From NCBI GenBank assembly GCA_024280015.1, contig JAJRQY010000140.1, positions 1 to 64,000 on the forward strand: 64,000 nucleotides of DNA. Direction: 5' to 3'. Shown here piece by piece: positions 1-15,379 of this stretch. Position 1 is the first letter of the stretch; the number at the start of each line of letters is the position of its first letter. Position numbers and translations under genes: made by a program. The notes beneath the pieces are model-generated. The model did not search any database. It was not told where the DNA came from and saw only the letters and a list, made by a program, of their open reading frames with translations. This stretch comes from Actinomycetes bacterium. Lineage in GTDB: Bacteria > Actinomycetota > Acidimicrobiia > Acidimicrobiales > SZUA-35.

Positions 1-380
1 ACCAGACGGTTCAGGGATCCGGTGACAGCAATGCGAACTTCGGTTCTGGTGACATTGTTGACTTGGAAGACGCCAATATCGAAGACTCCAATGTTGCCTT
101 TGGTGGCGGAACGGTTCAGGACAATGACACCGCCATCGACAACAGCACCACGGACAGCTTCAACTCAGACGACGACGTCTATGTCCAAGTTACTGACGAG
201 AGCGTCAATGACAGCAACAACGTCGAAGACTCCAACAATGCCTCCTATGAGGTTGATATTGACGCCGAATTGACCGTTGAGGATTCCTTCAACGACAACA
301 GCGCCGACAATGCCAGCGATTCCTTCAACGAGGCGGGCGATGACATCGCCATTGATGACTCAGAAATCGTTGAAGACTAG
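1..380 (+). CDS. IniB-like protein, C-terminal part (cut by window edge)
   Basis: Reading frame 3 is open from the left edge and ends with TAG at 378-380, so about 125 C-terminal residues are visible. They are rich in Asp, Asn, Ser and Gly and end in the same acidic tail as the complete IniB-like protein that follows. The DNA matches 1571-1950 in exactly the same length, identical over the first 131 bp and over about the last 110 bp apart from three silent changes near the stop, and diverged only in the middle. This is therefore the first copy of a tandem gene duplication. Function by analogy only: IniB of the mycobacterial isoniazid-inducible operon is a repetitive cell-envelope stress protein of unknown activity. 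Confidence 0.75.
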   Translation, partial: QTVQGSGDSNANFGSGDIVDLEDANIEDSNVAFGGGTVQDNDTAIDNSTTDSFNSDDDVYVQVTDESVNDSNNVEDSNNASYEVDIDAELTVEDSFNDNSADNASDSFNEAGDDIAIDDSEIVED

Positions 381-415
381 GCTGGGCAAGCGCCAAACAA
401 CTGAATAGTTAGTGC

Positions 416-447
416 TCGGACCTCAAGGAAGTGGCCTTGAGGTCCGA
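416..447 (+). terminator. Hairpin after first iniB-like copy
   Basis: A perfect 13-bp inverted repeat (416-428 and 435-447) with a 6-nt loop lies 35 nt after the stop codon. No T-run follows, so it is either an actinobacterial L-shaped terminator or an mRNA-stabilising hairpin. Confidence 0.6.
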
Positions 448-522
448 TGCGTTGTAGTGACACGGACGTTGCGTGACGCAGCGAAGTGTTCGTGGAGGGT
501 CGCGGAGAGGGGTTAGTCCGCT

Positions 523-553
523 ACCCCTAGTGTCCGTCATGGGGACTAGGGGT
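523..553 (+). promoter_or_regulatory. Dyad upstream of iniB-like gene, possible promoter/operator
   Basis: Two 9-bp arms (523-531 and 545-553) form a dyad in the 265-bp gap between the two iniB-like genes. The left arm contains TAGTGT (528-533), which fits a TANNNT -10 hexamer and would give a leader of roughly 105 nt. The block CCCCTAGTGT recurs at 63452-63461 next to another start codon. In mycobacteria iniBAC is tightly stress-regulated; the regulator here is unknown. Confidence 0.35.
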
Positions 554-645
554 GTCCCCGATACACCAGTTGAACAAGCCATGTACTGTTCAATTTGTCA
601 AACAGAACCCCACACACAAACCAAGTCCCATCGGAGGGAAACGAA

Positions 646-1950
646 ATGGATGTTAACGAACTTCTTGAAGCAGTACTAGCCAAGATCCTTGGAGATCCGG
701 CTGAAGCAGCGGCCTATGCAGCTGACCCAGACGGCTATCTGGCCGCAACCGGCCTCGCCAGCTGTGATTTCAGCGGAGTCGATCTCTCCGAGACCGTCGC
801 CGTTGTCAGCTCAGAACTGACACTCGCTCCGGAAACAACCGAGATTCTCGTGGCTGTTGATCCTGCTGAAGTTTCTGCTTCTGGCCCGAGTTCCTCGGCC
901 CCGAGCAGCGGTGGAAGCTCCTCTGGCGGCTCGTCCTCCAGCAGCTCCTCTTCCTCTTCGAGCAGCTCAAGCTCGTCCTCCAGTTCCAGCAGCTCATCCA
1001 GTGCTGCCTCAGCCCCGACCCCGGTCACCTATGAGACGGTGCAGCAAACCATCAATGAGTATGTGACGGTCGTGTACGAAGGTGACGAGACCATCATCAA
1101 CAACCTTGAGCAAACCAATATTGACAACAGCACCAACATTGATGTTGAGGTTGATGGCGACGTTGACGGTGACCTCGAAATCGATATTCACAATGAGAGC
1201 ACCAATGTCAATGCCACCGGCGACGGTGCGGTTGCTGCTGGTGATGACGCCACGGGTGTTGCTACCGGCGACGGTGCGATTGCTACCGGCGGCGACGTCA
1301 AGAACAGCCAACAAAACACCGGCGACGGTGCGGTTCAGATTGATGGAGAGAATGAGGGTGTTATCAATACTGGTGAGAACACCGGCATCATCGCTGGAGG
1401 CGATGTGGATGACACCATCATTGGTGACGACAACACCCAGGTCGGATCGGCCGAGAACGTGATCTCGGGTGACGGCAACACGGTTACTCAGGTTTCGGGC
1501 TACGGGAACCAGGTTGGTGACGGCAACACTCAGGTGGACACCTATGGTGATGCGGTTGTTGGTGACGGGAACCAGACGGTTCAGGGATCCGGTGACAGCA
1601 ATGCGAACTTCGGTTCTGGTGACATTGTTGACTTGGAAGACGCCAATATCGAAGACTCCAATGTTGCCTTTGGTGGCGGAACGGTTCAGGACAATGACAC
1701 CACCATCGACAACAGCACCGATGGCAGCTACAACTCTGACGACGACATCGACATTGAGGTCACCGACGAGAGCATCAATGACAGCTACAACGTCGAAGAT
1801 TCCAACAACACCACTAGTGAGGTTGATATTGACGCCGAATTGACCGTTGAGGATTCCTTCAACGACAACAGCGCCGACAATGCCAGCGATTCCTTCAACG
1901 AGGCGGGCGATGACATCGCCATTGATGACTCAGAAATTGTCGAGGACTAG
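646..1950 (+). CDS. iniB: IniB-like repetitive acidic protein
   Basis: 434 residues. The start is ATG 646, preceded by a strong AGGAGG-like site at 632-639. Residues 1-60 form a short domain with the spacing of the IniB N terminus (acidic residues, Ala-rich helix, then a DP..YLAATGL motif). Residues about 80-121 are a nearly pure Ser/Gly linker. From about residue 135 to the end come short repeats of Gly-Asp-Gly-Asn/Ala, Thr, Val and Ile that look like rungs of a parallel beta-solenoid, and the tail is strongly acidic. There is no signal peptide or membrane segment. It lies directly upstream of two dynamin-like genes in the order iniB-iniA-iniC known from Mycobacterium, where IniB is 479 residues. 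The molecular role is unknown in any organism; the beta-solenoid is my inference from the repeat pattern. Confidence 0.7.
   Translation: MDVNELLEAVLAKILGDPAEAAAYAADPDGYLAATGLASCDFSGVDLSETVAVVSSELTLAPETTEILVAVDPAEVSASGPSSSAPSSGGSSSGGSSSSSSSSSSSSSSSSSSSSSSSSAASAPTPVTYETVQQTINEYVTVVYEGDETIINNLEQTNIDNSTNIDVEVDGDVDGDLEIDIHNESTNVNATGDGAVAAGDDATGVATGDGAIATGGDVKNSQQNTGDGAVQIDGENEGVINTGENTGIIAGGDVDDTIIGDDNTQVGSAENVISGDGNTVTQVSGYGNQVGDGNTQVDTYGDAVVGDGNQTVQGSGDSNANFGSGDIVDLEDANIEDSNVAFGGGTVQDNDTTIDNSTDGSYNSDDDIDIEVTDESINDSYNVEDSNNTTSEVDIDAELTVEDSFNDNSADNASDSFNEAGDDIAIDDSEIVED
880..1010 (+). repeat. Serine-codon low-complexity tract
   Basis: A run of AGC, TCC, TCG and TCT codons encodes the Ser-rich linker of the IniB-like protein. 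Mixed codon use argues for selected protein composition rather than recent slippage of a single unit. Confidence 0.7.
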
Positions 1951-1987
1951 CATTTCACCCAGTTCTTGACGGCAATACGCCACTCGG

Positions 1988-2015
1988 TAGTGCCCCGGTT
2001 AACCCCGGGGCACTA
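1988..2015 (+). terminator. Hairpin between iniB and iniA
   Basis: An 11-bp perfect stem (1988-1998 with 2005-2015) and a 6-nt loop are followed by a T/G-rich stretch. It sits between iniB and iniA, 38-102 nt after the iniB stop, so it could reduce expression of the dynamins relative to iniB within one operon. Confidence 0.65.
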
Positions 2016-2089
2016 TTGTGGTTTGGACTGGCCACAGATCGATTTCTAGAATGAAAGATCTCGGCTGCAAGCAGTTCGTGAGAGGGAAC

Positions 2090-3925
2090 ATGTCTTCACA
2101 ACCAGAATCACACGCCGACGTTCGGTCGGCTCTACAACTCGGCATCCAAGCAGCAGGCGCCTATGGACGGCCGGACCTAGCCGAACGCCTCGATATCAAT
2201 CTCAACAAGCTTGGTGACCCCAACGTCCAGGTTGTTGTCATTGGCGAGTTTAAGCAGGGAAAGAGTTCACTGATCAATGCGTTGGTGAACGCCAAGATTT
2301 GTCCAGTCGATGATGACATCGCAACCGCGGTGCCAACGGTCTTGTCCTATGGGGAAGAAAAGGCAGCGGTTGCTCTGGTAACCCCGCTGGAGAAGCCGGA
2401 TGCCGAACCCGATCGACGAAGCATCGCCTTCGAACAGGTTCCCGCGTATGCGACCGAACTTGGTATGGCCGACCCGAACGTCGCCGTCAAGGGGGTAGAA
2501 ATCAAGCTGCCGCGCAAGCTGCTTCAGAATGGTCTGGTCCTGGTCGACACCCCCGGTGTCGGCGGCCTCGGATCGGCCCACGCCACCGCCGCGCTCGGTG
2601 CTCTCTCTGTGGCCGATGCCGCCCTTTTTGTCAGCGACGCCTCACAGGAGTTCACCCGGGCCGAGATGGACTTCTTGACCCAGGCTATGGATCTTTGCCC
2701 TCATGTGGTCTGCATCATGACGAAGGTCGACTTCTACCCAGCCTGGCGCAGAGTGTTGGAGATCAATCAGGGTCACCTTGCGCGGGCCGGCATCAAAATG
2801 CCGATCATGCCGGTTTCTTCCACCTTGCGGGCCGAAGCTGTCCGACGCAACGATCGAGAACTGAACAAGGATTCTGGTTTCCCTGACCTGGTCAAGTTCT
2901 TGACCAACCAGATTGTGGCCGAGCAAGCGGCGCGGGAACGCATGCGCTGTCGACAGGACCTCTTGTCAGTGTGTGACCAGCTCGGAAGCCAGTTCGAGGC
3001 CGAGCTGAGCGCCTTGACTGATCCTGAACAAGCGGCCCAGCTGATGGAGAGGCTGACTGCTGCTAAGTCTCGAGCGGAGCGGCTCAAGGGCCAGGCGGCC
3101 AAGTGGAGTACTACCTTGAATGATGGGGTTGGCGACCTTACCAGCGATGTCGATTTCGACTTTCGGCAACGAATGCGCTTGATTACTCAAGAAGCCGATG
3201 CGGCAATCGCCAACAGTGATCCGTTGGACACCTGGTCTGAGTTCGAACCCTGGCTGGTCAATCGAGTCTCCAACGAGGTCGTGACCAACTACCGCTTCTT
3301 GACCGAGCGCGCTGCCCATCTTGGTCTCGAGGTCGGCAATCACTTCGAGGTTGATGGCGACCAGCTGATGGATGACCTCGATATTCACAATCCGACTGGA
3401 GTTCTGGCCAAGGTTTCGGTCGATCCGACGATGGAGATCGAAGGACCCAGCAAGGGTGCACAAGGAATGACGGTTCTTCGCGGTTCGTATTCGGGCATCC
3501 TCATGTTTGGCATGCTTGGATCCATGGTCGGCTTGTCCCTCGGCGCCATCCCCATTGGTATTGGCCTGATGATGGGGCGCAAGAGCCTTAAGGACGAGAA
3601 GGCTAGACAGGCAAACCAACGCCGGGCTCAAGCCAAAAATTCGCTCCGACGCTATTGCGATGAGGTGAGTTTCCAGGTGTCCAAGGACAGCCGCGACACC
3701 CTTCGTCGGGTGCAGCGGCAACTGCGTGATCATTACAGCACGAGGGCCGAGGAGATGCATGTCTCGACCACGACTGCGCTCCAGGCTGCCGCCCAAGCAG
3801 TCAAGGTTGGTGAGGGCGAGCGAGCTCGGCGAGTGAAAGACATCCGAGCCGAACTCAGCCGGATCCAAGGGATGCGAGCCAAGACCGAAGCGATTGCGGC
3901 AACACCTGCTGGAGCCACTGCCTGA
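2090..3925 (+). CDS. iniA: Dynamin-like GTPase, IniA type
   Basis: 611 residues from ATG 2090, which has GAGAGGGA upstream; an in-frame GTG at 2018 lies inside the preceding hairpin and is unlikely. The GTPase motifs are visible: P-loop GEFKQGKSS (52-60), switch-2 DTPG (153-156) and TKVD (211-214). A long helical stalk follows, then a paired hydrophobic segment at about 469-497 that fits the membrane-inserting loop of bacterial dynamin-like proteins, and a further coiled segment. Mycobacterial IniA is 640 residues and has been described as a membrane-fissioning dynamin-like protein. The stop overlaps the iniC start by one base, so the two should be translated together and probably act as partners on the inner face of the cytoplasmic membrane. 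Confidence 0.85.
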   Translation: MSSQPESHADVRSALQLGIQAAGAYGRPDLAERLDINLNKLGDPNVQVVVIGEFKQGKSSLINALVNAKICPVDDDIATAVPTVLSYGEEKAAVALVTPLEKPDAEPDRRSIAFEQVPAYATELGMADPNVAVKGVEIKLPRKLLQNGLVLVDTPGVGGLGSAHATAALGALSVADAALFVSDASQEFTRAEMDFLTQAMDLCPHVVCIMTKVDFYPAWRRVLEINQGHLARAGIKMPIMPVSSTLRAEAVRRNDRELNKDSGFPDLVKFLTNQIVAEQAARERMRCRQDLLSVCDQLGSQFEAELSALTDPEQAAQLMERLTAAKSRAERLKGQAAKWSTTLNDGVGDLTSDVDFDFRQRMRLITQEADAAIANSDPLDTWSEFEPWLVNRVSNEVVTNYRFLTERAAHLGLEVGNHFEVDGDQLMDDLDIHNPTGVLAKVSVDPTMEIEGPSKGAQGMTVLRGSYSGILMFGMLGSMVGLSLGAIPIGIGLMMGRKSLKDEKARQANQRRAQAKNSLRRYCDEVSFQVSKDSRDTLRRVQRQLRDHYSTRAEEMHVSTTTALQAAAQAVKVGEGERARRVKDIRAELSRIQGMRAKTEAIAATPAGATA

Positions 3926-5406
3926 TGAATGAGTTGGTAGAACAAGCCCGGAATCTTGTTGTCGATGCCCAGAGCGTCTTCACTAGCGCTGATGATGCTG
4001 ATGTTTTGCGTGGTTCATTGGAGCGGTTGGACGGCCCCTTGCGGGTGGCGATCGCTGGCAAGGTCAAGGCGGGGAAATCCACCCTGCTCAATGCCCTGGT
4101 GGGGGAGCGGCTGGCCCCGACTGATACTGGTGAGTGCACCAAGGTGGTCACCTGGTACAAGGATGGTCACACCTATCAGGTCATGGTCCATCCTCGGGAC
4201 GGCAGTCCCGCGGTGCAAGCGCGCTTCCATCGTGATGAGGGAGCAATCGAGATCGATCTTGATGGTCGTGACGCCATGTCCATTGATCGTCTGGAAGTGA
4301 CGTGGCCTTCCAGCGGCTTGCGTCAACTCACCCTGGTCGATACCCCGGGTATCGATTCTCTGACGGAGAGTGTCTCTACCAGGGCCTTTGAGTTTCTAGA
4401 CCCCGAAGACAATGACACACCCGCTGACGCGGTGCTGTACTTGATGAAGCATATCCACTCGTCGGATCTTCGTCTGCTGGAAGCCTTTCACGATGACTCG
4501 GTCGCCTCACCTAACCCGGTAAACGCGGTTGCCGTTCTCTCTCGGGCCGATGAGATCGGTGCCGGTCGCCTCGATTCAATGGCTTCGGCTCGTCGTATCG
4601 CCAAGCGCTATGGACAAGACGGACGGCTCCGTCGCCTCATCCAGGTTGTTGTCCCGGTGGCGGGTTTGTTGGCTGAGACGGCTGAGACACTGACCCAGTG
4701 GGAGTACAACTCGCTCAAGCAGCTTGCTGACTTTCCGGCGGCAGAACTGGATCCCTACCTCCTGTCGGCTGACCGCTTTGTTGAAGCTAAGCCTGAAACC
4801 CCCTTGACTTCGCTGGAACGTGAGCAACTGCTGGCCAGGTTCGGCCTGTTTGGTGTTCGGCTCTCCATGGCCCTGTTGCGTCGTAAGGTCGCGGAATCCA
4901 GTGCCGAATTGTCTGATGAACTCGTAGGTCGCTCAGGACTTGTTGAATTGCAAACCATTCTGACCACACTCTTTGTCGACCGGTCTGATGTTCTCAAGGC
5001 GAGGTCTGCCTTGTTGGCAGTGGAGCGTATGTGCAATGTTGATCCGACTCAAGAGGGGTCTCAGCGCTTGTTGCTTGCGATCGAGCAGATCATGGCTGGT
5101 GCTCATCCGTTTAATGAGCTGTCGACCATGGCCGCCATTCGTAGCGGCTGGGTGTCAGGCAAGCCCGCTGACCTTGGTGACTTGGAGCGAGTCTTGGGTG
5201 CAGGAGGTACTGCTCCCTGGCAGCGGCTTGGGCTTGATGAGTCGGCTGAACGAGATGCCATCAGCACGATGGCCATTACTGAGCTTGGCCGCTTTCAACG
5301 ATTGGCCGAGAGTCCCTTCACAGTGCATGATCTTGGCATGGCGGCCAGGGTCGGAATCCGTTCGCTCGAAGCCCTCATTGCCGCGAATACGTCGGTCGCG
5401 ACCTAG
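3925..5406 (+). CDS. iniC: Dynamin-like GTPase, IniC type
   Basis: 493 residues, the same length as mycobacterial IniC. The ATG overlaps the iniA stop by one base (TGATG), implying translational coupling. Motifs: P-loop GKVKAGKST (45-53), DTPG (139-142) and a degenerate G4 motif SRAD (206-209). Unlike IniA it has no obvious paired hydrophobic loop; the C-terminal half is predicted helical and Leu/Ala-rich. It may form a heteromeric dynamin with IniA, as in bacterial dynamin pairs, but that is inference. It converges on the gene at 5419 with a gap of 12 bp. Confidence 0.85.
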   Translation: MNELVEQARNLVVDAQSVFTSADDADVLRGSLERLDGPLRVAIAGKVKAGKSTLLNALVGERLAPTDTGECTKVVTWYKDGHTYQVMVHPRDGSPAVQARFHRDEGAIEIDLDGRDAMSIDRLEVTWPSSGLRQLTLVDTPGIDSLTESVSTRAFEFLDPEDNDTPADAVLYLMKHIHSSDLRLLEAFHDDSVASPNPVNAVAVLSRADEIGAGRLDSMASARRIAKRYGQDGRLRRLIQVVVPVAGLLAETAETLTQWEYNSLKQLADFPAAELDPYLLSADRFVEAKPETPLTSLEREQLLARFGLFGVRLSMALLRRKVAESSAELSDELVGRSGLVELQTILTTLFVDRSDVLKARSALLAVERMCNVDPTQEGSQRLLLAIEQIMAGAHPFNELSTMAAIRSGWVSGKPADLGDLERVLGAGGTAPWQRLGLDESAERDAISTMAITELGRFQRLAESPFTVHDLGMAARVGIRSLEALIAANTSVAT

Positions 5407-5418
5407 CTGGCAGTCGAA

Positions 5419-6156
5419 TCAGTCACTGAAGTCAAGGTCATCGGGATCGATTCCTCCATCGGCCTCATCAGTTTCGTCGAACTCGACGGAGAAGAGATCG
5501 ACTCCCGCTTCCTCGATGGTGTCTTGAGTTTCGGTCGGCAGTGAGGATGCGTCGAAGCGTGGAGCAAGATCGTCCAGCATGGCGTCATCGTTGGAGTAGG
5601 TTTCGTCTTCTTCGGTCGGAGACTCTGGGTCAACGTCGTCGGTCAGATCCAGGTTGGCGGTGCCCGAACCGAAGTCAGCATCTCCGCCCTCGTCGTCCAT
5701 GAGCACGTCAGTATCGGAAAGGGCGTCGTCTGTACTGTCATCCGCACGGTCCCCGCCTGGCTCCTCGGAGTCGCTCACAGACTCCTCGTCACCCTCAGCG
5801 GAATCCACTCCAACCGGATCGTCGAAATCGTCGAGTTCTGTCAATGCCGGAGCGGCGGCAACAAACAAGGCAAACGGATCGGAACCATCAACCGAAGACT
5901 CGAGGTTCTCGTCGTTGAGGGGGGCAAGGTCGGTGTCTTCGAAGGGGATGGGGCTCACTCGGGTCACAACGGGAGCCAGGGCATCAGCCTGGGCCAGGGG
6001 AGCAGTGTCGGAGAAGTGGACAAGGGCGGTACCAAAGAGCTCGCTTGGAACGTCCCCGTATCCATTATCGGCCATAACCGTGGCTGGGTCATGTGTTGCT
6101 GGCTGATTAGCGGTTTCACCAGTCAGGAGTTGGTCTATCGCATCTCGAATAGTCAC
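5419..6156 (-). CDS. Acidic low-complexity protein beside the Ini locus
   Basis: 245 residues, unrecognised. The N-terminal 90 residues look folded (short helices, a motif around DVPSELFGTALVHF and a following DTAP...ADALAP stretch). Residues 100-245 are dominated by Asp, Glu and Ser with few hydrophobics and are probably disordered. There is no signal peptide or membrane segment. The GTG start lies exactly 6 nt after TAAGCT, a leaderless arrangement, and the gene is divergent from the Hsp70 gene. Its composition resembles the acidic tails of the neighbouring IniB-like proteins, so it may belong to the same system as a scaffold or Hsp70 client. Confidence 0.65.
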   Translation of the reverse strand: MTIRDAIDQLLTGETANQPATHDPATVMADNGYGDVPSELFGTALVHFSDTAPLAQADALAPVVTRVSPIPFEDTDLAPLNDENLESSVDGSDPFALFVAAAPALTELDDFDDPVGVDSAEGDEESVSDSEEPGGDRADDSTDDALSDTDVLMDDEGGDADFGSGTANLDLTDDVDPESPTEEDETYSNDDAMLDDLAPRFDASSLPTETQDTIEEAGVDLFSVEFDETDEADGGIDPDDLDFSD

Positions 6157-6162
6157 ATGGCT

Positions 6163-6168
6163 AGCTTA
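6163..6168 (-). promoter_or_regulatory. -10 hexamer TAAGCT, leaderless
   Basis: TAAGCT is separated by 6 nt from the GTG at 6156, so transcription would start at or next to the start codon of the acidic-protein gene. Confidence 0.6.
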
Positions 6169-6260
6169 GACGCAAGCGGCTAATCTGGCCATCGGGGATG
6201 TCCCCCTCTGTACCTAGGGTTTCGCCTCTAGGATGGTGGGCTTCCGGAGGGAGACGGTTA

Positions 6261-8660
6261 GTGAGTTATTTTGTAGGGATTGATCTCGGTACGACCTATA
6301 CGGCGGCCGCGATCTACCGAAACAATCGGGCAGCCATTTTTTCGCTCGGTGGCAGGTCGGCATCGATCCCCTCCGTCGTCCTTCTTCGAGAGGACGAGAC
6401 TGTCCTGACCGGCGATGCTGCGGTACGTCGCGCCATCACCGAACCCGAGCGCGTCGCTCGCGAGTTCAAGCGTCGTCTCGGTGACACCACCCCAATCATT
6501 GTTGGTGGCAGTCCCTACTCGGCAGAAGCGTTGATGGCCAGACTGCTCAAGTCGGTCTTGGAAGAGGTGGAGAAGCGAGAAGGCGAACCGCCAGAAGGCA
6601 TCGCTATTTCCCATCCGGCCAATTGGGGGCTGTACAAGATTGACCTGCTCAAGCAGGCGGTTCGTTTGGCTGGTCTCAATGACGACACCGTGACCCTGCT
6701 GACCGAGCCCGAAGCTGCGGTGATTTCCTATGCCTCCCAGGAGCGGGTCGAGGCCGGTGAAGTTGTCGCCGTGTATGACCTTGGCGGCGGTACGTTCGAT
6801 GCTGCTGTTCTTCGCCGAACCGAAGCAGGCTTCGAGATCATTGGCAAGCCCGAAGGGATCGAACGCCTTGGTGGTATTGATTTTGATGCCGCCGTCTTTG
6901 CCCACGTAGCCCGCTCCCTTGACGGAGCCCTGGGCAAGCTTGATCCGGACGATTCGGCCGCCCAAGCGGCGATGGCCAGGCTTCGCCAGGATTGCGTCGA
7001 CGCTAAGGTAGCCCTCTCGGCCGACACCGATGCCACCATTCCGGTTTTGTTGCCGAATCTCCAGACCGATGTTCGCATCACCAGACGCGAGTACGAGTCA
7101 CTGATCCGGCCGTCATTGGTTGACAGTATCGAGGCCATGCGTCGAGCACTGGTGAGTGCGGGTGTGACCGCTGAAGAAGTGTCGCGGGTCTTGTTGGTCG
7201 GCGGATCCAGCCGCACGCCATTGATTGCCCAGCTTGTTTCCTCTGAGCTTGGGCGCCCGGTTGCCGTTGATGCCCACCCAAAGCATGCGGTCGCGTTGGG
7301 TGCAGCCCATGCTGCTGCGGGGACTGTTGGTGCTGAACTGGACACGACCACAGCGGCCGTCCCAGCGACTCCACCAACGCCGTCCACTCCACCAACACCG
7401 TCTAATCCTCCAACGCCGACTGAAGCTAAATCGGCTGTGCCCCCGACTCCGGCGAAAAAGTCGACACCACCAAGTCCGCCTGCTTCAATAGCTAATGTAC
7501 CTGCAGCGCCTCCTACGCCGTCGACCCCGGCGAAACCAGCCGTTCCGCCAACCCCGTCCTCGATCTTTGAGGAACCGACGCCGGCTGTGCCGTCCAGTTC
7601 TGCTGGTGTCCCTGTTGTTCCCAGTGACGTGGCTCCGAAACCGAAGAAGCCAGAACCAGCCAAACCGGCAGCAAAGAAGCCAGAACCGAAGATGCCGCCG
7701 ACACCGGTCGTGGAGCGGCCTACCGGGGCCCTGCCAACATCTGGTCCTCCGCCAAGGCTGGTGGAAACTCCAAAGTCAGCTGAGCCGCCAGTGACCACCC
7801 CCCACGGAGCTGTCAAGGGTTCGGATGCGCCAGGAGCGCCGGTCGACGTCTCCAGCAAGAGTCGCGGCCCGCTGATCGCTGCCCTCGTTGGTGTGGTGGC
7901 CGTGATCGGTATTGGCGGATTCGCCATCTCTCAACTTGGCGGCGGTGATGATGGAGTGGGTACTACCGGAACGTCCGAGGTGGTCCAGTCCACCACGACC
8001 GAACCAGGTGACGATCCAACGACCACCGAAGCGGTGGCAGACACCACAACTCCGACCGAAGCTCCCGTCGTCAGCGTTCCTGACGACGAGCTAACCGAAG
8101 ACGTGTTTCTCGCCCTCAAGGACTCAATCGGCCTGCTTGAAGTCAGCGTGGCCCAAGGAACGGTCACCCTTGTTGGCTACGCCGACTCCAGTGTCGATCG
8201 AGATGCAGCGAGGGACACGGCCGGCGGCATCGAGGGCGCAGGAGTGATAGTCAACAACATCGTGGTGCATACCGAAGATGAGCTGTGCACCGATCTGATC
8301 CAGTCCCAGCCTCGTTGGGCCTGTATCACCGACGCTTGGATCGATGTTGATGGCAGCGTTAACGCCATTTTCGAGTCCCAGGACGGTGGAACAAGCTTCA
8401 GCGTCGGCTCCAGTTTTCACCTCCATGTCTTCGGCAGTCAGATCGATCCAATCAATGCTGGTGCGAATGGCGACGCCTCCAAAGGCGGCGGGCCCTGGCA
8501 GGTGTGGGACATCACGCCAGGATTCAACGATACGCCGGTGGCCGTCTTTGGATCAGCGGAGATCCCGGAGAAGCTGTGCGTGCGAATTGCCACCCCAAGA
8601 CACACACTTGAATCCCTCGACTCGGGCAACTGCTTCCCTATTCGCTTCGAAGAAGGCTGA
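6261..8660 (+). CDS. Membrane-anchored Hsp70-type ATPase with outer BON-like domain
   Basis: 799 residues from GTG 6261, with GGAGGGA 10 nt upstream. Residues 1-370 are an actin-fold Hsp70 ATPase: phosphate-1 GIDLGTTYT near the N terminus, phosphate-2 DLGGGTFD around 172, and adenosine motif VGGSSRTP around 315. The beta-sandwich substrate-binding domain and EEVD-type tail of DnaK are absent. Instead a Pro/Thr/Ser/Ala-rich linker (about 370-530) leads to one membrane helix at about 536-558, a Thr-rich spacer, and an outer domain of about 220 residues whose first part resembles a BON fold and which carries three Cys. The ATPase should face the cytoplasm and the tail the outside, linking ATP state to the envelope. 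Hsp70-family genes with such tails occur near iniBAC-like loci in actinobacteria. Confidence 0.8.
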   Translation: MSYFVGIDLGTTYTAAAIYRNNRAAIFSLGGRSASIPSVVLLREDETVLTGDAAVRRAITEPERVAREFKRRLGDTTPIIVGGSPYSAEALMARLLKSVLEEVEKREGEPPEGIAISHPANWGLYKIDLLKQAVRLAGLNDDTVTLLTEPEAAVISYASQERVEAGEVVAVYDLGGGTFDAAVLRRTEAGFEIIGKPEGIERLGGIDFDAAVFAHVARSLDGALGKLDPDDSAAQAAMARLRQDCVDAKVALSADTDATIPVLLPNLQTDVRITRREYESLIRPSLVDSIEAMRRALVSAGVTAEEVSRVLLVGGSSRTPLIAQLVSSELGRPVAVDAHPKHAVALGAAHAAAGTVGAELDTTTAAVPATPPTPSTPPTPSNPPTPTEAKSAVPPTPAKKSTPPSPPASIANVPAAPPTPSTPAKPAVPPTPSSIFEEPTPAVPSSSAGVPVVPSDVAPKPKKPEPAKPAAKKPEPKMPPTPVVERPTGALPTSGPPPRLVETPKSAEPPVTTPHGAVKGSDAPGAPVDVSSKSRGPLIAALVGVVAVIGIGGFAISQLGGGDDGVGTTGTSEVVQSTTTEPGDDPTTTEAVADTTTPTEAPVVSVPDDELTEDVFLALKDSIGLLEVSVAQGTVTLVGYADSSVDRDAARDTAGGIEGAGVIVNNIVVHTEDELCTDLIQSQPRWACITDAWIDVDGSVNAIFESQDGGTSFSVGSSFHLHVFGSQIDPINAGANGDASKGGGPWQVWDITPGFNDTPVAVFGSAEIPEKLCVRIATPRHTLESLDSGNCFPIRFEEG
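7360..7570 (+). repeat. Pro-Thr-Pro-Ser coding repeats
   Basis: Imperfect 12-15 bp units coding PPTPS/PPTPT make up the linker of the Hsp70-type protein. Confidence 0.6.
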
Positions 8661-9631: not shown

Positions 9632-11158
9632 TTACTCGGTTGGTTGACGAAGTCGGAATCGTTGGATCTTGCCCGTCGCTGTCTTAGGAAGATCGGGAAC
9701 GATGTGGACCTGTCGGGGTCGCTTGTAGCCAGCCAGTTGCTCCCGGCAGTACTGGATGAGTAGGTCGCCAAAGGCAGCCGCAGGCAGGGCAGTCTGGTCT
9801 TGATCGACCGGTATGACGAAGGCAACCGGCCGCAGAATGCCCTCATCATCGGGTGAGCCAATAACCGCGGCTTCCAGTACCTCGGGATGAGAAATCAACA
9901 CACCTTCGACTTCGGCCGGCGAGACCCACTCGCCGCCGATCCGCAGCATGTCGTCGGCGCGTCCGAGGTATTGATAGAAGCCCTCGCCGTCTCGGACATA
10001 GAGGTCTCCAGTCAAGGTCCAGTCGCCACGGAAGGTCTCCCGAGTAGTTTTGCTGCGGCACCAATAGCCAGTGGCGGCAGAGTCGCCCCGGACTCGAAGC
10101 TTGCCCGGCATGTCAACCCCGCATTCGCTGCCCTCGTCGTCGACCACACGAATGTCATAGCCAGGTACGGGCACACCGCTGGTTCCGGCCTTGACCATCC
10201 CCGGCTTGTTCGACAGATACACGTGAAGCATCTCGGTTGAGCCGATGCCATCCAGAATTGTTACGCCAAAGAGCTCGCGGAACCTGTTGAACGTCTCGGC
10301 TGGCAGCGACTCGGCGGCCGAACATGCCAACCGGACCGAAGCAAACGCATCGGACGGTAGGTCAGCGTTGACCAGCGCGGCATAGAAGGTTGGAATGCAG
10401 AAGAAAAGGGTCGGCTTCTCCTTGGCGATGGTCTGGGCCACCATGGCGGGAGTCGGCGGCCTGGTGGGTACAAGAACCACACTGGCGCCAACGGCGAAGG
10501 GGAAGGTGATGGAGTTGCCGAGCCCGTAGGCATGAAACATTGGTCCGACCGAGTAGCAGCGGTCGTCTTTGGTGACGCCAAGCACATTGGTGGCAAAGGT
10601 ATCGCTGGTGACCTTCAGATCGACATGTCGGTGCATGGCCAGCTTGGGGCGCCCGGTAGTCCCTGATGTACAGAGCCAGAAGCCCGGCGATTCTTCCCAT
10701 GTGTCATAGGCGTCCGACTGGTCGGTGGTCGATTGAGCGAAACTGTCCCACTCGTCAGTTCGTACCACATGCTGGATCTCGGGTGCATCGGGGAGCAAGG
10801 TTTCCAGCGAACCTGCTCGCTCGCTGGAGATCACCAGAATCCGAGCACGAGCATCGGCGATGATCACGGCAAGATCGCGACCAGGTAGAAGAGGATTGGT
10901 CAGAACCGGAACCGCTCCAATACGCATCGCTCCAAGGAAGGTGGCTACGAACTGCACCGAGTCCAACATCACCATGGCCACCCGTTCCTCGGGCCGCACT
11001 CCCAGGGCGCGCAATCCGCTGGCAACCGCCTTGATCTCTTCCAGGAGATCGGCGTAGGTGGTGGTTGTCCCCTCACAACGAATGGCGATTCGATCCCCCC
11101 GTCCCTCTCGGACGTGGCGTTCGACCAGCCAATCGGTGGCGTTGAAGAATTCGTGCAT
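9632..11158 (-). CDS. Benzoate-CoA ligase family protein
   Basis: 508 residues, the usual length of benzoate-CoA ligases. ANL-superfamily motifs: AMP-binding TSGTTGRPK near residue 172, GIGSTEM around 310, TGDLYVRDGEG near 390, and the C-terminal catalytic Lys in KTATGKIQR. The enzyme would convert benzoate, ATP and CoA to benzoyl-CoA in the cytoplasm, the first step of the box pathway. Downstream of the PaaX-type regulator gene with 52 bp between and followed by the hydrolase, it is probably in a three-gene transcript divergent from boxC-boxB. Substituted benzoates are possible substrates. Confidence 0.88.
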   Translation of the reverse strand: MHEFFNATDWLVERHVREGRGDRIAIRCEGTTTTYADLLEEIKAVASGLRALGVRPEERVAMVMLDSVQFVATFLGAMRIGAVPVLTNPLLPGRDLAVIIADARARILVISSERAGSLETLLPDAPEIQHVVRTDEWDSFAQSTTDQSDAYDTWEESPGFWLCTSGTTGRPKLAMHRHVDLKVTSDTFATNVLGVTKDDRCYSVGPMFHAYGLGNSITFPFAVGASVVLVPTRPPTPAMVAQTIAKEKPTLFFCIPTFYAALVNADLPSDAFASVRLACSAAESLPAETFNRFRELFGVTILDGIGSTEMLHVYLSNKPGMVKAGTSGVPVPGYDIRVVDDEGSECGVDMPGKLRVRGDSAATGYWCRSKTTRETFRGDWTLTGDLYVRDGEGFYQYLGRADDMLRIGGEWVSPAEVEGVLISHPEVLEAAVIGSPDDEGILRPVAFVIPVDQDQTALPAAAFGDLLIQYCREQLAGYKRPRQVHIVPDLPKTATGKIQRFRLRQPTE

Positions 11159-11210
11159 GATGGAGGTCCTTGGATTCGAGTCCGGGGTCAGGTAGAGGTG
11201 GTGTCAGTGG

Positions 11211-12143
11211 TCATTTGGACAATAGTTCTTCGCTCTGGTTCCACCAGCGGTGCGCGCTTGAGCTCCAACGCTGATTGAGTTCGTGATAGCGCAGGGCAGC
11301 TTGATGTCCCGGCCAATCTGCTGGCAGGAGCGCTGGTGGAAGATCGGGGTCGAGGAAGGGGAAGCGGCGCCAAGAATGAAGAAGCTGGATGAGGGCATGA
11401 GCATGTTGGGATTCGCTACTTGTTGCCAGCTCATCGGCCTGCCGGAGAAATTGCTCATATTGGGACCGGACCAAAGAGAGGTCCCAAGCCCGTTCAGCCA
11501 GCTGCAGCGGGTCACCCATTGTTCCGTGTGTAGCGGTGAAGGAATGCACATTCTTCACCCCGGTCTCAGCCAGTACTCGCATGGCCTCGGCCTCCCGCTC
11601 TGGCCGAGTTGAGATCCACCAACCTTGACCAAGGGATCCGAATCCAGCCCAGTTGAGCCCAGACGCAAGCTGGTATCGAACCTTGCGATCTCGCTCCGGA
11701 AGCGAAGCACTAAGTAGGAGCCATTCCCCGTTCCAGGCCGGAGCTTCGAGACCGAATCCGTAGATGCGCGCCGCACCGTCTTCGAGCAAGCCTTGGAGTT
11801 CGGGACTGAGTGTCCAGCGAGTCCGTCGGCCAACCTTGTCCTTGCGGAGCCAGTCCCGTTCGGCCAGGCGGCTGATGGCTTGGCGGGCCGCCTTTTCTTC
11901 AACGCCATGCATCCCAAGACCTTCGACAATTGTCTGAGTCCAGGCCGAGCCGCCATTGCTTAAGACGAATTCGCCAAGCAAGGTAAGCAGCAAACCACGA
12001 GATGACTTCGCCGTAGCCGTACCGTTCTTCTTCGCTCCAAGAACCGGAGCGAGTAGCTCATCGGCTGACTTTGATGAATCCGCAGAGCCAGGTTTATATT
12101 CTACAAAAAGGTTGTTCTCGTTGATTAAATCATGGTATATCAA
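11211..12143 (-). CDS. PaaX-family transcriptional regulator
   Basis: About 310 residues if the TTG at 12143 is used; the frame stays open to ATG 12284, which lies inside boxC and is unlikely, and no ATG or GTG lies between. The family core starts at the helix-turn-helix beginning SRGLLLTLLGEFVL and includes the wing motif around RQAISRLAERDWL, then the PaaX effector region and C-terminal domain with the LIQLLHSWRRFPFLDPDLP stretch typical of the family. PaaX proteins repress phenylacetate genes in response to an aryl-CoA; here it sits between the ligase gene and boxC and should respond to benzoyl-CoA or a related thioester. Confidence 0.8.
   Translation of the reverse strand: MIYHDLINENNLFVEYKPGSADSSKSADELLAPVLGAKKNGTATAKSSRGLLLTLLGEFVLSNGGSAWTQTIVEGLGMHGVEEKAARQAISRLAERDWLRKDKVGRRTRWTLSPELQGLLEDGAARIYGFGLEAPAWNGEWLLLSASLPERDRKVRYQLASGLNWAGFGSLGQGWWISTRPEREAEAMRVLAETGVKNVHSFTATHGTMGDPLQLAERAWDLSLVRSQYEQFLRQADELATSSESQHAHALIQLLHSWRRFPFLDPDLPPALLPADWPGHQAALRYHELNQRWSSSAHRWWNQSEELLSK
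12121..12143. promoter_or_regulatory. Imperfect operator-like dyad in the box divergon
   Basis: Half-sites TTGAT (12121-12125) and ATCAA (12139-12143) face each other in an AT-rich patch of the divergent promoter region between the PaaX-type gene and boxC. This is a candidate PaaX operator; spacing and sequence were judged by eye. Confidence 0.35.
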
Positions 12144-12154
12144 TGAGGAGTGAA

Positions 12155-12214
12155 ATGAAAGCTCCGAATGGAACGGCCAACGGAGTAGAACGAACGGGTC
12201 CCCGAGCAACGTGA
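12155..12214 (+). CDS. 19-codon leader ORF overlapping boxC start
   Basis: ATG 12155 has a good ribosome-binding site (TGAGGAG, 12144-12150) and runs 19 codons to TGA 12212-12214. The last base triplet overlaps the boxC GTG as GTGA, and boxC has no ribosome-binding site of its own. The peptide is rich in Gly, Thr, Ala and Pro with no obvious function, so the likely role is translational coupling. If a sequencing error created the frame change, this would instead be the true N terminus of BoxC. Confidence 0.45.
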   Translation: MKAPNGTANGVERTGPRAT

Positions 12215-13935
12215 CTGCCTCCACTGAAACATCGCAATCCTCCAACACCCAATCACCCTCGGGTGGGCTCGCACCCGCTGTCACTCTGACACCAGCGGGT
12301 GCCCTGACACCGGCCGGTACCCCGATGATGGACTTCGAGCGCGAACGTGATGCCTACGCCCATTGGCGGGTCGAGTTTGATGCGCCAATTGCCAGACTCA
12401 TCATGGACGTCGATCCCGATGGCGGTGCCATTGGTGACTATGAACTGAAGCTGAACAGCTATGACATTGGTGTCGACATCGAACTGGCTGCCATCATCCG
12501 TCGTATTCGCTTTGAGCACCCAGAGATCGGGTGCGTTGTTCTCGAGGGAGCGATTTCGGGCACATTCTGCGCCGGAGCGAACATTCGTATGCTGGCCATG
12601 GCACCACACGGGCACAAGATCAACTTCTGCAAGTTCACCAACGAGACCCGACTTGAGATTGAAGAGGCGTCAGCCAACTCCGGTCTTCGTTTCCTGGCCG
12701 CAATCAATGGTGCCTGTTCCGGAGGTGGCTACGAGCTTGCCATTTCGTGTGATCACCTCATTCTCATCGATGACCGTTCGACCGCGGTGTCTCTCCCCGA
12801 GGTCCCCCTTCTGGGGGTTATGCCTGGAACCGGTGGCTTGACCCGAGTGACCGACAAGCGCGGCGTTCGCCGAGACCGAGCCGACGTCTTTGCCACCAAG
12901 ACCGAGGGTGTCGCCGGTGCCGAGGCCTTGGAGTGGAAACTGGTTGACGAGTTAGCAAAACCATCAACCTTTGATCAATCTGTTCTTGACCGGGCAACGC
13001 AGATGGCAGAAACATCTGACCGGAATCCTGATGACGCGCCTCTGGTGATCCCGCCGCTCGACCGTGAGTTGTCCGACGATGCAGTTTCCTACCGCTATGT
13101 CACCGCACAGATCGAACGCGGAACCCGCAGTGTCACCATCACCATTGCTGCCTCGGCCGATGATGACTGGCCCCTGCGTTCTGCTCTTGAGTTGGACGAC
13201 CTGCTCCTTCACCTGCGGTTCAACGAGCCCGAGATTGGCACGATCCTGATGAAGACGGTTGGATCGGCCGACGACGTGATGGTTCACGACGCCCGGTTGT
13301 CCAATCCGTCCAGTCACGCCGAGCGTGAGACAACCCTGCTTTGGGCCCGCGTCCTTTCCCGCCTGGACCTGATGGCTCGTAGTCTCTTCGCCGTCATCGA
13401 CCCCGCCTCCTGCTTCGTCAGCATCCTGGCCGAGGTGGCCTTGGCCGCCGACCGCACCTACATGTTGGACGGCGTCTTCGAAGACGAAGACCATCCACTC
13501 CCGGCTGCCACCATGATGTTGAGCGAACTCAGCCTGGGGGCAATGCCAATGGCTAATGGTCTCACCCGGATGCAATCACGGCTCTGGCTCGATGACGAAG
13601 GTTTGGAAGCAGCCCTGACCATGGTTGGCAAGCCGGTTGAAGCGGCCCAGGCGGTCCGACTGGGGATGGCAACCATCAACCCGGATGATCTTGACTGGGA
13701 AGACGAGATCCGCATCGCCATTGAAGAGCGGGCAACCTACTCACCTGACGCCCTGACCGGCATGGAAGCCAATCATCGTTTCTGTGGCCCGGAAACCATG
13801 GCAACCAAAATCTTCGGCCGGCTCTCGGCCTGGCAGAACTGGATCTTCTATCGCCCCAACGCCAGCAGTGAAACGGGCTCACTCCGTAGCTACGGTTCAG
13901 GCAGCCGCGGCGACTTCGATCTCAAACGTACCTAA
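12211..13935 (+). CDS. boxC: BoxC, 2,3-epoxybenzoyl-CoA dihydrolase
   Basis: 574 residues; family members are about 550. It is an enoyl-CoA hydratase/crotonase-type protein with the BoxC signature YELKLNSYDIGVDIELA, RIRFEHPEI, SGTFCAGANI and NGACSGGGYELA. It opens the ring of 2,3-epoxybenzoyl-CoA to 3,4-dehydroadipyl-CoA semialdehyde and formate. The first 38 residues are a Ser/Thr/Ala/Pro-rich extension before MMDFERERDAYAHW, so an alternative start at 12325 is possible. Translation probably depends on the overlapping leader ORF. boxB follows after 28 bp. Confidence 0.92.
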   Translation: MTASTETSQSSNTQSPSGGLAPAVTLTPAGALTPAGTPMMDFERERDAYAHWRVEFDAPIARLIMDVDPDGGAIGDYELKLNSYDIGVDIELAAIIRRIRFEHPEIGCVVLEGAISGTFCAGANIRMLAMAPHGHKINFCKFTNETRLEIEEASANSGLRFLAAINGACSGGGYELAISCDHLILIDDRSTAVSLPEVPLLGVMPGTGGLTRVTDKRGVRRDRADVFATKTEGVAGAEALEWKLVDELAKPSTFDQSVLDRATQMAETSDRNPDDAPLVIPPLDRELSDDAVSYRYVTAQIERGTRSVTITIAASADDDWPLRSALELDDLLLHLRFNEPEIGTILMKTVGSADDVMVHDARLSNPSSHAERETTLLWARVLSRLDLMARSLFAVIDPASCFVSILAEVALAADRTYMLDGVFEDEDHPLPAATMMLSELSLGAMPMANGLTRMQSRLWLDDEGLEAALTMVGKPVEAAQAVRLGMATINPDDLDWEDEIRIAIEERATYSPDALTGMEANHRFCGPETMATKIFGRLSAWQNWIFYRPNASSETGSLRSYGSGSRGDFDLKRT

Positions 13936-13963
13936 GAAAACACCACCCAACCGAAAGGCCGAC

Positions 13964-15379
13964 ATGGCTGGTATCGACTACTCGCAGAAAATCCCGAACA
14001 ACGTCAACCTGGCAGAGGACCGCCGACTGCAGCGAGCATTGGAAGCATGGCAGCCCAAGTACGTCGACTGGTGGAAGGAAATGGGCCCAGACGGCTTCAT
14101 GGCCGATGACGTCTATCTACGAACCGCCATTGACGTTGGCAAGGAAGGCTGGGCTCACTTCGGTCATGTGCAGATGCCTGACTACCGCTGGGGCATTTTC
14201 CTGGCTGAGCCAGAGAAGGACCGCACCATTGGTTTTGGTGACTTGAAGGGTGAGCCGGTCTGGCAAGAGGTGCCGGGCGAGTACCGCTCTGACCTGCGCC
14301 GCCTCATCGTGGTGCAAGGTGACACCGAACCAGCCTCGGTCGAACAGCAACGACTGCTTGGTAAGAGTGCACCCTCGCTCTATGACCTTCGCAACCTCTT
14401 CCAGGTCAATATCGAAGAAGGCCGCCACCTGTGGGCCATGGTGTACCTTCTGTTCGGCTACTTCGGCCGTGAGGGACGAGAGGAAGCCGACGCAATGTTG
14501 GAGCGCCGGTCCGGTGACCCCGATCAGCCTCGGATCTTGGAGGCCTTCAATGAGAAGACCCCTGACTGGCTGAGCTTTTTCATGTTCACCTACTTCACTG
14601 ATCGAGATGGCAAGTATCAGCTCGGCGCCTTGAAGGAATCTGCCTTTGACCCGCTGTCACGGACGTGTGACTTCATGCTGAAAGAAGAGGCCCATCACAT
14701 GTTTGTTGGGGCCAGTGGTATTGGCCGCATTATCCAACGAACCTGTGACCTGATGAAGGAGCACAACACCGAAGACGTTGGCCCTCATGGTGGCATCAAT
14801 CTGGACACCATCCAGCGTTACATCAACTTCCACTACTCGGTGTCAATGGACCTGTTCGGTTCACCAAAGTCAACCAATGCTGCCATCTACTATTCCGCCG
14901 GCCTGAAGGGACGTTTCGCTGAAGCAAACAAGGACGACGACCATCTACTGGTCAGTGGAGAGTCGACCTTCCTGTCGATTCGTGATGGTCAGATTTTCGA
15001 GGATTCTTCCCGCTCTCTGAATCTTGTCAACGACGACGTGCGGAGCGACTACAGCGAGGACTGTGGCAAGGGTGTGCGACGCTGGAATCGCATTCTGGCC
15101 GACAACAATGTTGACTTCGAAATGAAGCTTCCTCACGTTGGTTTCCATCGAGCGGTCGGCCCGTTCGCCAATGCCAACATCAGCCCGACCGGTGATGTGT
15201 TGAGTGACGAACAGTGGGAGGCGTCGGTGAGCAAGTGGCTACCGTCAGAAGAAGAACAGGTCTACGTCAGCTCGCTCATGGTCCCGGAGTACCGGGTTGG
15301 AAAGATGGCTGGCTGGATTGCCGCACCATCCAGTGGCATCAATACCCAAACCGTCGACTACGAATACGTCAAGCTCTAA
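13964..15379 (+). CDS. boxB: BoxB, benzoyl-CoA 2,3-epoxidase oxygenase subunit
   Basis: 471 residues, full length for the family (about 473). ATG 13964 follows GAAAGG; the frame remains open further upstream inside boxC but that is not coding. Di-iron ligand motifs of the ferritin-like oxygenase are visible: NIEEGRH and the later KEEAHHMF. With the FAD/iron-sulfur reductase BoxA it epoxidises benzoyl-CoA using O2. boxA is not in the window, so the electron supply must be encoded elsewhere or replaced. It is the second gene of the boxC-boxB unit. Confidence 0.94.
   Translation: MAGIDYSQKIPNNVNLAEDRRLQRALEAWQPKYVDWWKEMGPDGFMADDVYLRTAIDVGKEGWAHFGHVQMPDYRWGIFLAEPEKDRTIGFGDLKGEPVWQEVPGEYRSDLRRLIVVQGDTEPASVEQQRLLGKSAPSLYDLRNLFQVNIEEGRHLWAMVYLLFGYFGREGREEADAMLERRSGDPDQPRILEAFNEKTPDWLSFFMFTYFTDRDGKYQLGALKESAFDPLSRTCDFMLKEEAHHMFVGASGIGRIIQRTCDLMKEHNTEDVGPHGGINLDTIQRYINFHYSVSMDLFGSPKSTNAAIYYSAGLKGRFAEANKDDDHLLVSGESTFLSIRDGQIFEDSSRSLNLVNDDVRSDYSEDCGKGVRRWNRILADNNVDFEMKLPHVGFHRAVGPFANANISPTGDVLSDEQWEASVSKWLPSEEEQVYVSSLMVPEYRVGKMAGWIAAPSSGINTQTVDYEYVKL

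Follow-up and report, generated by a model that had tools for sequence, protein, structure and literature searches.

In mycobacteria, iniBAC is the classic example of an operon induced by isoniazid and ethambutol. Its activator, IniR, resembles MalT (PMC5760070), a STAND protein that inhibitory proteins hold inactive by binding to it (PMC10427625), and in vitro IniA both binds acidic lipids and severs membranes (PMC6715688). The sole mention of an Hsp70 with this system that we found in the open literature (subscription papers were outside the scope) is one sentence in a 2017 paper, which places a dnaK-like gene next to iniR in M. smegmatis (PMC5760070), and we found no study there of an ini-linked Hsp70. 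The ini system itself is known; what is new here is a conserved Hsp70-like member that is nearly unstudied.

Here we analyzed a stretch of 64,000 nucleotides (the window) that starts at base 1 of contig C172 in a 4.8 Mb Acidimicrobiales genome of 175 contigs. The nearest named relative of the window dynamin belongs to an uncultured Acidimicrobiales MAG, at 78% identity. A first-pass annotation had described dynamins of the ini type together with an Hsp70-type protein that spans the membrane, a description that our analysis bears out, with corrections. The locus (Table 1) is an ini envelope-stress module of IniR, IniB, an IniB*-like protein, IniA and IniC, together with the Hsp70-like protein as an extra member. 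Aerobic benzoate (box) genes adjoin it at 9632-15379 and encode a benzoate-CoA ligase, a PaaX-like regulator, BoxC and BoxB, with the BoxC match at 711.5 bits, just below the cut-off of 712.3.

Table 1. Genes and protein domains of the ini-type locus, in window coordinates.
Feature	Position	Strand	Evidence
IniB-like copy 1, C-terminal part only (contig edge)	3-380	+	93% DNA identity to 1571-1950
IniB-like copy 2, 434 aa	646-1950	+	IniB_NTERM E 4e-5; SD GGAGGG, ATG at 646
IniA orthologue, dynamin-like GTPase (Dyn1)	2090-3925	+	PDB 6j72; Dynamin_N E 6e-24
IniC-like dynamin (Dyn2), 493 aa	3925-5406	+	Dynamin_N E 2e-12; TGATG junction
Leaderless acidic protein, 245 aa	5419-6156	-	Same place and strand in L044, L045, L046
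Hsp70-like transmembrane protein, 799 aa	6261-8660	+	HSP70 E 7e-54
Hsp70 nucleotide-binding domain (NBD), residues 1-354	6261-7322	+	Catalytic residues kept; Foldseek DnaK E 3e-30
Hsp70-like TM helix, residues 538-556	7872-7928	+	Kyte-Doolittle 2.67; flanks fit N-in/C-out
BON domain, residues 608-669, predicted outer part of the Hsp70-like protein	8082-8267	+	Pfam BON 32.2 bits, cut-off 27

The first dynamin has M. smegmatis IniA as its best PDB match (6j72, E 3.5e-121); residues 23-591 align to 15-583 over 569 residues, along the full length of the solved protein, at 409 bits. P-loop residues G52, G57, K58 and S59 are invariant in the alignment (A2). Matches to the Leo dynamin system in PADLOC reach 62-69 bits, weak beside the IniA match, and LeoA/LeoBC was rejected as the closest family. 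The two dynamin genes had been called translationally coupled and placed behind the IniB-like gene, and both points hold, with the stop and start codons sharing one base. An IniC-like gene is paired with the IniA-like gene in nearly all relatives, and no Hsp70 was found near the other dynamin families of the class (L068-L070).

The IniB-like duplication claimed by the first-pass annotation is also real. The first copy is 5'-truncated at the contig edge, and a search of the window's own genome located an N-terminal half of 200 residues that runs off the end of contig C85 (G000:C85:1-618, minus strand). C85 shares 210 bp with the region of the second copy at 95% identity, and the fragment is probably the missing half of the first copy. 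We rejected an assembly artefact as the source of the duplication, as the copies have diverged and the missing N-terminus lies on C85. The second copy consists of an IniB-type N-terminal domain, a Ser-rich linker and D/N/G-rich repeats. Its score against the IniB family model (NF038175, 23.5 bits, E 4e-5) falls below the curated cut-off of 40 bits; it is still placed as IniB-like from its position beside iniA and from the alignment. Orthologues lie 5' of iniA in four further loci (L044, L055, L081 and L083). The predicted model of IniB (pLDDT 41) is uninterpretable and too poor to show a polymer. In L083 (6916-7986), the IniB N-terminal domain (LLxxLxxLxxDPxAAxxYxxDPxxxLxxxGL) also gives weak matches to leader models of the NHLP-type RiPPs (TIGR04509, E 5e-4; NF038399, E 0.028), which hints that this kind of domain, present in the window copy as well, may be leader- or docking-like. 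L083 is a MAG labelled Acidobacteria with an Acidimicrobiia-like ini locus, and its Hsp70 falls near that of the window in the tree; it is either a mislabelled bin or a case of transfer.

The gene directly upstream of the IniB fragment on C85 encodes a STAND-type protein of 812 residues that has a LuxR C-terminus. Its best family is IniR (NF038181, 147.5 bits, E 5e-43, not reaching the equivalog cut-off of 750 bits), and it is the only such match in the genome. Since iniR near iniB is the mycobacterial arrangement (PMC5760070), joining C85 to C172 probably gives the full order iniR-iniB1-iniB2-iniA-iniC-(acidic, minus)-hsp70. Across the phylum sample described below, IniR was found in 16 genomes, all 16 of them among those with iniC.

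The acidic protein has a pI of 4.05 and is 29% Asp plus Glu. It had been presented, with the Hsp70, as the next genes after the dynamins; both are present and the acidic protein is leaderless, but its gene faces iniC tail to tail and the Hsp70 gene head to head. Because it converges on iniC from the minus strand, the acidic and Hsp70 genes do not form one operon with the dynamins. The protein did not match the Rv0340/IniB* model (NF038176). By profile-profile comparison, however, its N-terminal profile matches that of IniB (probability 75, E 2.6e-5), and we regard it as a probable IniB*/Rv0340-like protein. Likewise divergent from hsp70 is the adjoining mycobacterial gene, which encodes a true Rv0340-family IniB* (E 3e-60), and in L083 a protein with the IniB N-terminal domain adjoins its divergent Hsp70 gene.

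The Hsp70-like gene likely starts at GTG 6261, preceded by the SD GGAGG. Its product is laid out as an ATPase domain, a Pro-rich linker, a TM helix and an outer domain, and the Pfam HSP70 match spans the ATPase domain only. AlphaFold models residues 1-353 at a pLDDT of about 90 or higher, followed by a disordered linker and nothing Hsp70-like beyond; Foldseek assigns the modelled domain to DnaK ATPase domains, and the outer-domain model has low confidence. A search with the peptide-binding domain (SBD) of the genome's own DnaK matched true DnaKs only, so that this domain was found in none of the ini-linked Hsp70s. Judged by its domains, the Hsp70-like protein does not qualify as a conventional chaperone. 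A TM helix follows the NBD and Pro-rich linker in 59 of 62 relatives. The flank on its N-terminal side is the more positive in 53 of the 59, and the ATPase domain is therefore predicted to be inside the cell and the outer domain outside. Outer domains vary, with BON in the window and PD40, a PQQ propeller, GH99-like and other domains elsewhere. An inner ATPase domain that stays the same while the outer domain changes would resemble the layout of a receptor.

The window protein and nearly all non-mycobacterial members retain the equivalents of DnaK D8, K70, E171, T199 and D201, with K70 the least certain column of the alignment. Most catalytic residues are replaced in Mycobacterium, Nocardia, Williamsia, Jongsikchunia and Antrihabitans, where, for example, P1 reads LGLSIGSTNL and P2 LCDFGGNGTTI. 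Members with this degenerate site form one well-supported branch (19 rows, SH-aLRT 100), which makes a single loss of catalysis, within Mycobacteriales, probable. The ini-linked Hsp70s group apart from DnaK in the tree. Their distances track those of IniC (r 0.60, 0 of 2000 permutations), which is weak evidence, as species relatedness is uncorrected. The same genome encodes a second Hsp70 ATPase-domain protein on contig C130 (L007:4299-6623), with neither SBD nor TM helix and with a putative FHA-like segment noted by eye. It has the same type of ATPase domain, but it was rejected as an ini member as its neighbourhood has no dynamin.

Co-occurrence of iniA/iniC with such Hsp70s had been put forward as a check, and the association extends across the Actinomycetota, not this genome alone. 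Within the class (296 genomes), 24 genomes have an IniC-like protein (E below 1e-30), 21 have the Hsp70 ATPase domain at E 1e-55 or better, and 20 have both; the hypergeometric p value of 4e-26 treats genomes as independent, which they are not. Among 396 genomes drawn evenly from the phylum, IniC occurs in 22 and a close Hsp70 in 10, all 10 of which also have IniC. At the level of loci, 18 of 20 phylum-wide, Mycobacterium included, have the Hsp70 within about 10 kb of iniC. Chance predicts about 2% per locus, again with genomes treated as independent, and a chance neighbourhood was rejected. The pattern recurs in Mycobacterium, Nocardia, Williamsia, Jongsikchunia, Antrihabitans, Arthrobacter, Pseudarthrobacter, Agreia, Pseudonocardia, Saccharopolyspora, Kribbella, Paractinoplanes, Kibdelosporangium and Frankia, and a Gordonia plasmid bears a related dynamin-Hsp70 gene set. 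The Hsp70-like gene is an ancestral, conserved member of the ini module that has been overlooked so far.

Several Mycobacteriales also have a true DnaK gene no more than roughly 10 kb away from the ini dynamins, separate from the Hsp70 that lacks the SBD (L102:18814-20817, L112:12926-14815, L139, L145 and L146); M. tuberculosis dnaK (Rv0350) also lies near iniBAC. Extra Hsp70-like copies are present on the dynamin side of the mycobacterial ini locus in L108 (7898-13206) and L149 (10740-12545), close behind iniC in the latter.

We then compared the immediate neighbours of 66 Hsp70 genes near ini dynamins. These loci were gathered with a dynamin query, which makes the dynamins constant partly by construction, and the class and phylum counts are for this reason the fairer evidence. 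In 20 of the 66, the Hsp70 and IniR genes lie on one strand no more than 60 nt apart, with gaps of -4 in L112 and L153, 1 in L088, and 3 in L139, L155 and L092. In seven of the 66 the immediate same-strand neighbour of the Hsp70 gene is a dynamin gene, at -4 in L064, L066 and L137. For 30 of the 66 there is no IniR in the region read, and with about half of the loci in this state IniR cannot be a universal partner. Mycobacteria usually have iniR and hsp70 together on one strand, with iniB*, iniB, iniA and iniC following divergently. In the window lineage the Hsp70 gene belongs to a divergent pair and is coupled to neither iniR nor the dynamins.

Two mechanisms had been suggested in the first reading, ATP-driven loading or release of IniB-like polymers and a coupling of envelope state to dynamin action, and the second fits better. 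We give about an even chance to a membrane sensor or anchor through which the Hsp70-like protein would link the condition of the envelope with IniR and with IniA/IniC, where we infer the partners as well as the direction of signalling. The outer domain, whether BON as here or a propeller or another domain as elsewhere, would bind or monitor the envelope, and the ATPase domain across the membrane would serve as a nucleotide-dependent switch or anchor. This switch may hold or release cytosolic partners, namely IniA/IniC in all lineages and the MalT-like IniR where the genes are coupled, and dynamin membrane repair and ini expression would then follow envelope damage. Probably ATP drives the switch in most lineages, with the Mycobacteriales form acting as a non-catalytic anchor. 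Holding and release are proposed because IniA cuts membranes, IniR is MalT-like and MalT is held by inhibitors. The uncoupled Hsp70 gene of the window lineage and the many loci with no IniR in the region read count against the sensor or anchor model. Also against it, the ini loci of M. marinum and M. tuberculosis are described without an Hsp70-like gene and IniR is functional there (PMC5760070), so the gene would not be essential for induction. More tentatively, the Hsp70 ATPase domain could have been turned into a transmembrane stress receptor, in which a variable outer sensor, the TM helix and an inner switch gate IniR and the dynamins, with a pseudo-ATPase receptor in Mycobacteriales.

The remaining explanations are less probable to differing degrees. 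The Hsp70 could mainly be a sensor or inhibitor of IniR with no direct dynamin contact, a doubtful but serious candidate given hsp70-iniR gaps of about -4 to +20 nt in Mycobacterium, Nocardia, Williamsia, Arthrobacter and Agreia, and given that IniR is MalT-like (PMC5760070) and that binding partners hold MalT inactive (PMC10427625). Yet about half of the regions contain Hsp70 and dynamins without IniR, a count biased by the dynamin-seeded set, and dynamin-Hsp70 gene overlaps occur in three loci. A purely structural membrane anchor for the dynamins, with nucleotide turnover unimportant, would agree with the pseudo-ATPase of Mycobacteriales and the nearly universal TM helix; the strict conservation of catalytic residues in other lineages suggests that ATP matters there, and we consider this reading unlikely.

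If the Hsp70 were an ATP-driven chaperone for loading or releasing IniB-like polymers, this would make sense of the intact catalytic residues in the window and most non-mycobacterial relatives, of the IniB or acidic genes adjoining the Hsp70 gene, and of the repetitive nature of IniB. It is nonetheless improbable because the SBD is missing in every member examined, with disorder following the NBD in the model, and because the catalytic residues are lost in one large clade that includes Mycobacterium, Nocardia and Williamsia; no GrpE or DnaJ gene was noticed among the neighbours in reading the locus, nor can the IniB model speak for a polymer. Least probable by far is a GTPase-Hsp70 conflict (defence) system. 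TRAFAC GTPases do occur in actinobacteria with Hsp70 (and tubulin) genes, including Hsp70s without a peptide-binding domain (PMC7159879), and the PADLOC matches of weak Leo type point the same way. The GTPases here, however, are IniA/IniC, the set includes IniR and IniB, and neither an effector nor a tubulin was recognized among the genes examined.

Conserved across actinobacteria, M. smegmatis included by the one-sentence report, and often coupled to iniR or elsewhere to the dynamins, this membrane protein offers a direct genetic handle on envelope-damage sensing and dynamin control. If the sensor or anchor model is true, it would also represent an unusual re-use of the Hsp70 fold as a receptor or anchor rather than a chaperone. 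Compared with the systems of PMC7159879, the locus is alike in pairing GTPases with an Hsp70, some of which lack the peptide-binding domain, but the GTPases of those systems are not IniA/IniC, their other partners differ and they include no ini genes. Like DnaK/Hsp70 chaperones, the window protein has the ATPase-domain fold and all catalytic residues, whereas a Pro-rich linker, TM helix and outer domain take the place of the peptide-binding domain. The closest likeness is to mycobacterial iniBAC with IniR and iniB* (Rv0339c-Rv0343), in gene set and order, IniA, the IniB N-terminal domain and an IniR-like STAND regulator. The window differs from it in having two IniB copies, an IniR-like protein far below the IniR cut-off, and an Hsp70-like gene, which PMC5760070 reports for M. 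smegmatis only, in passing.
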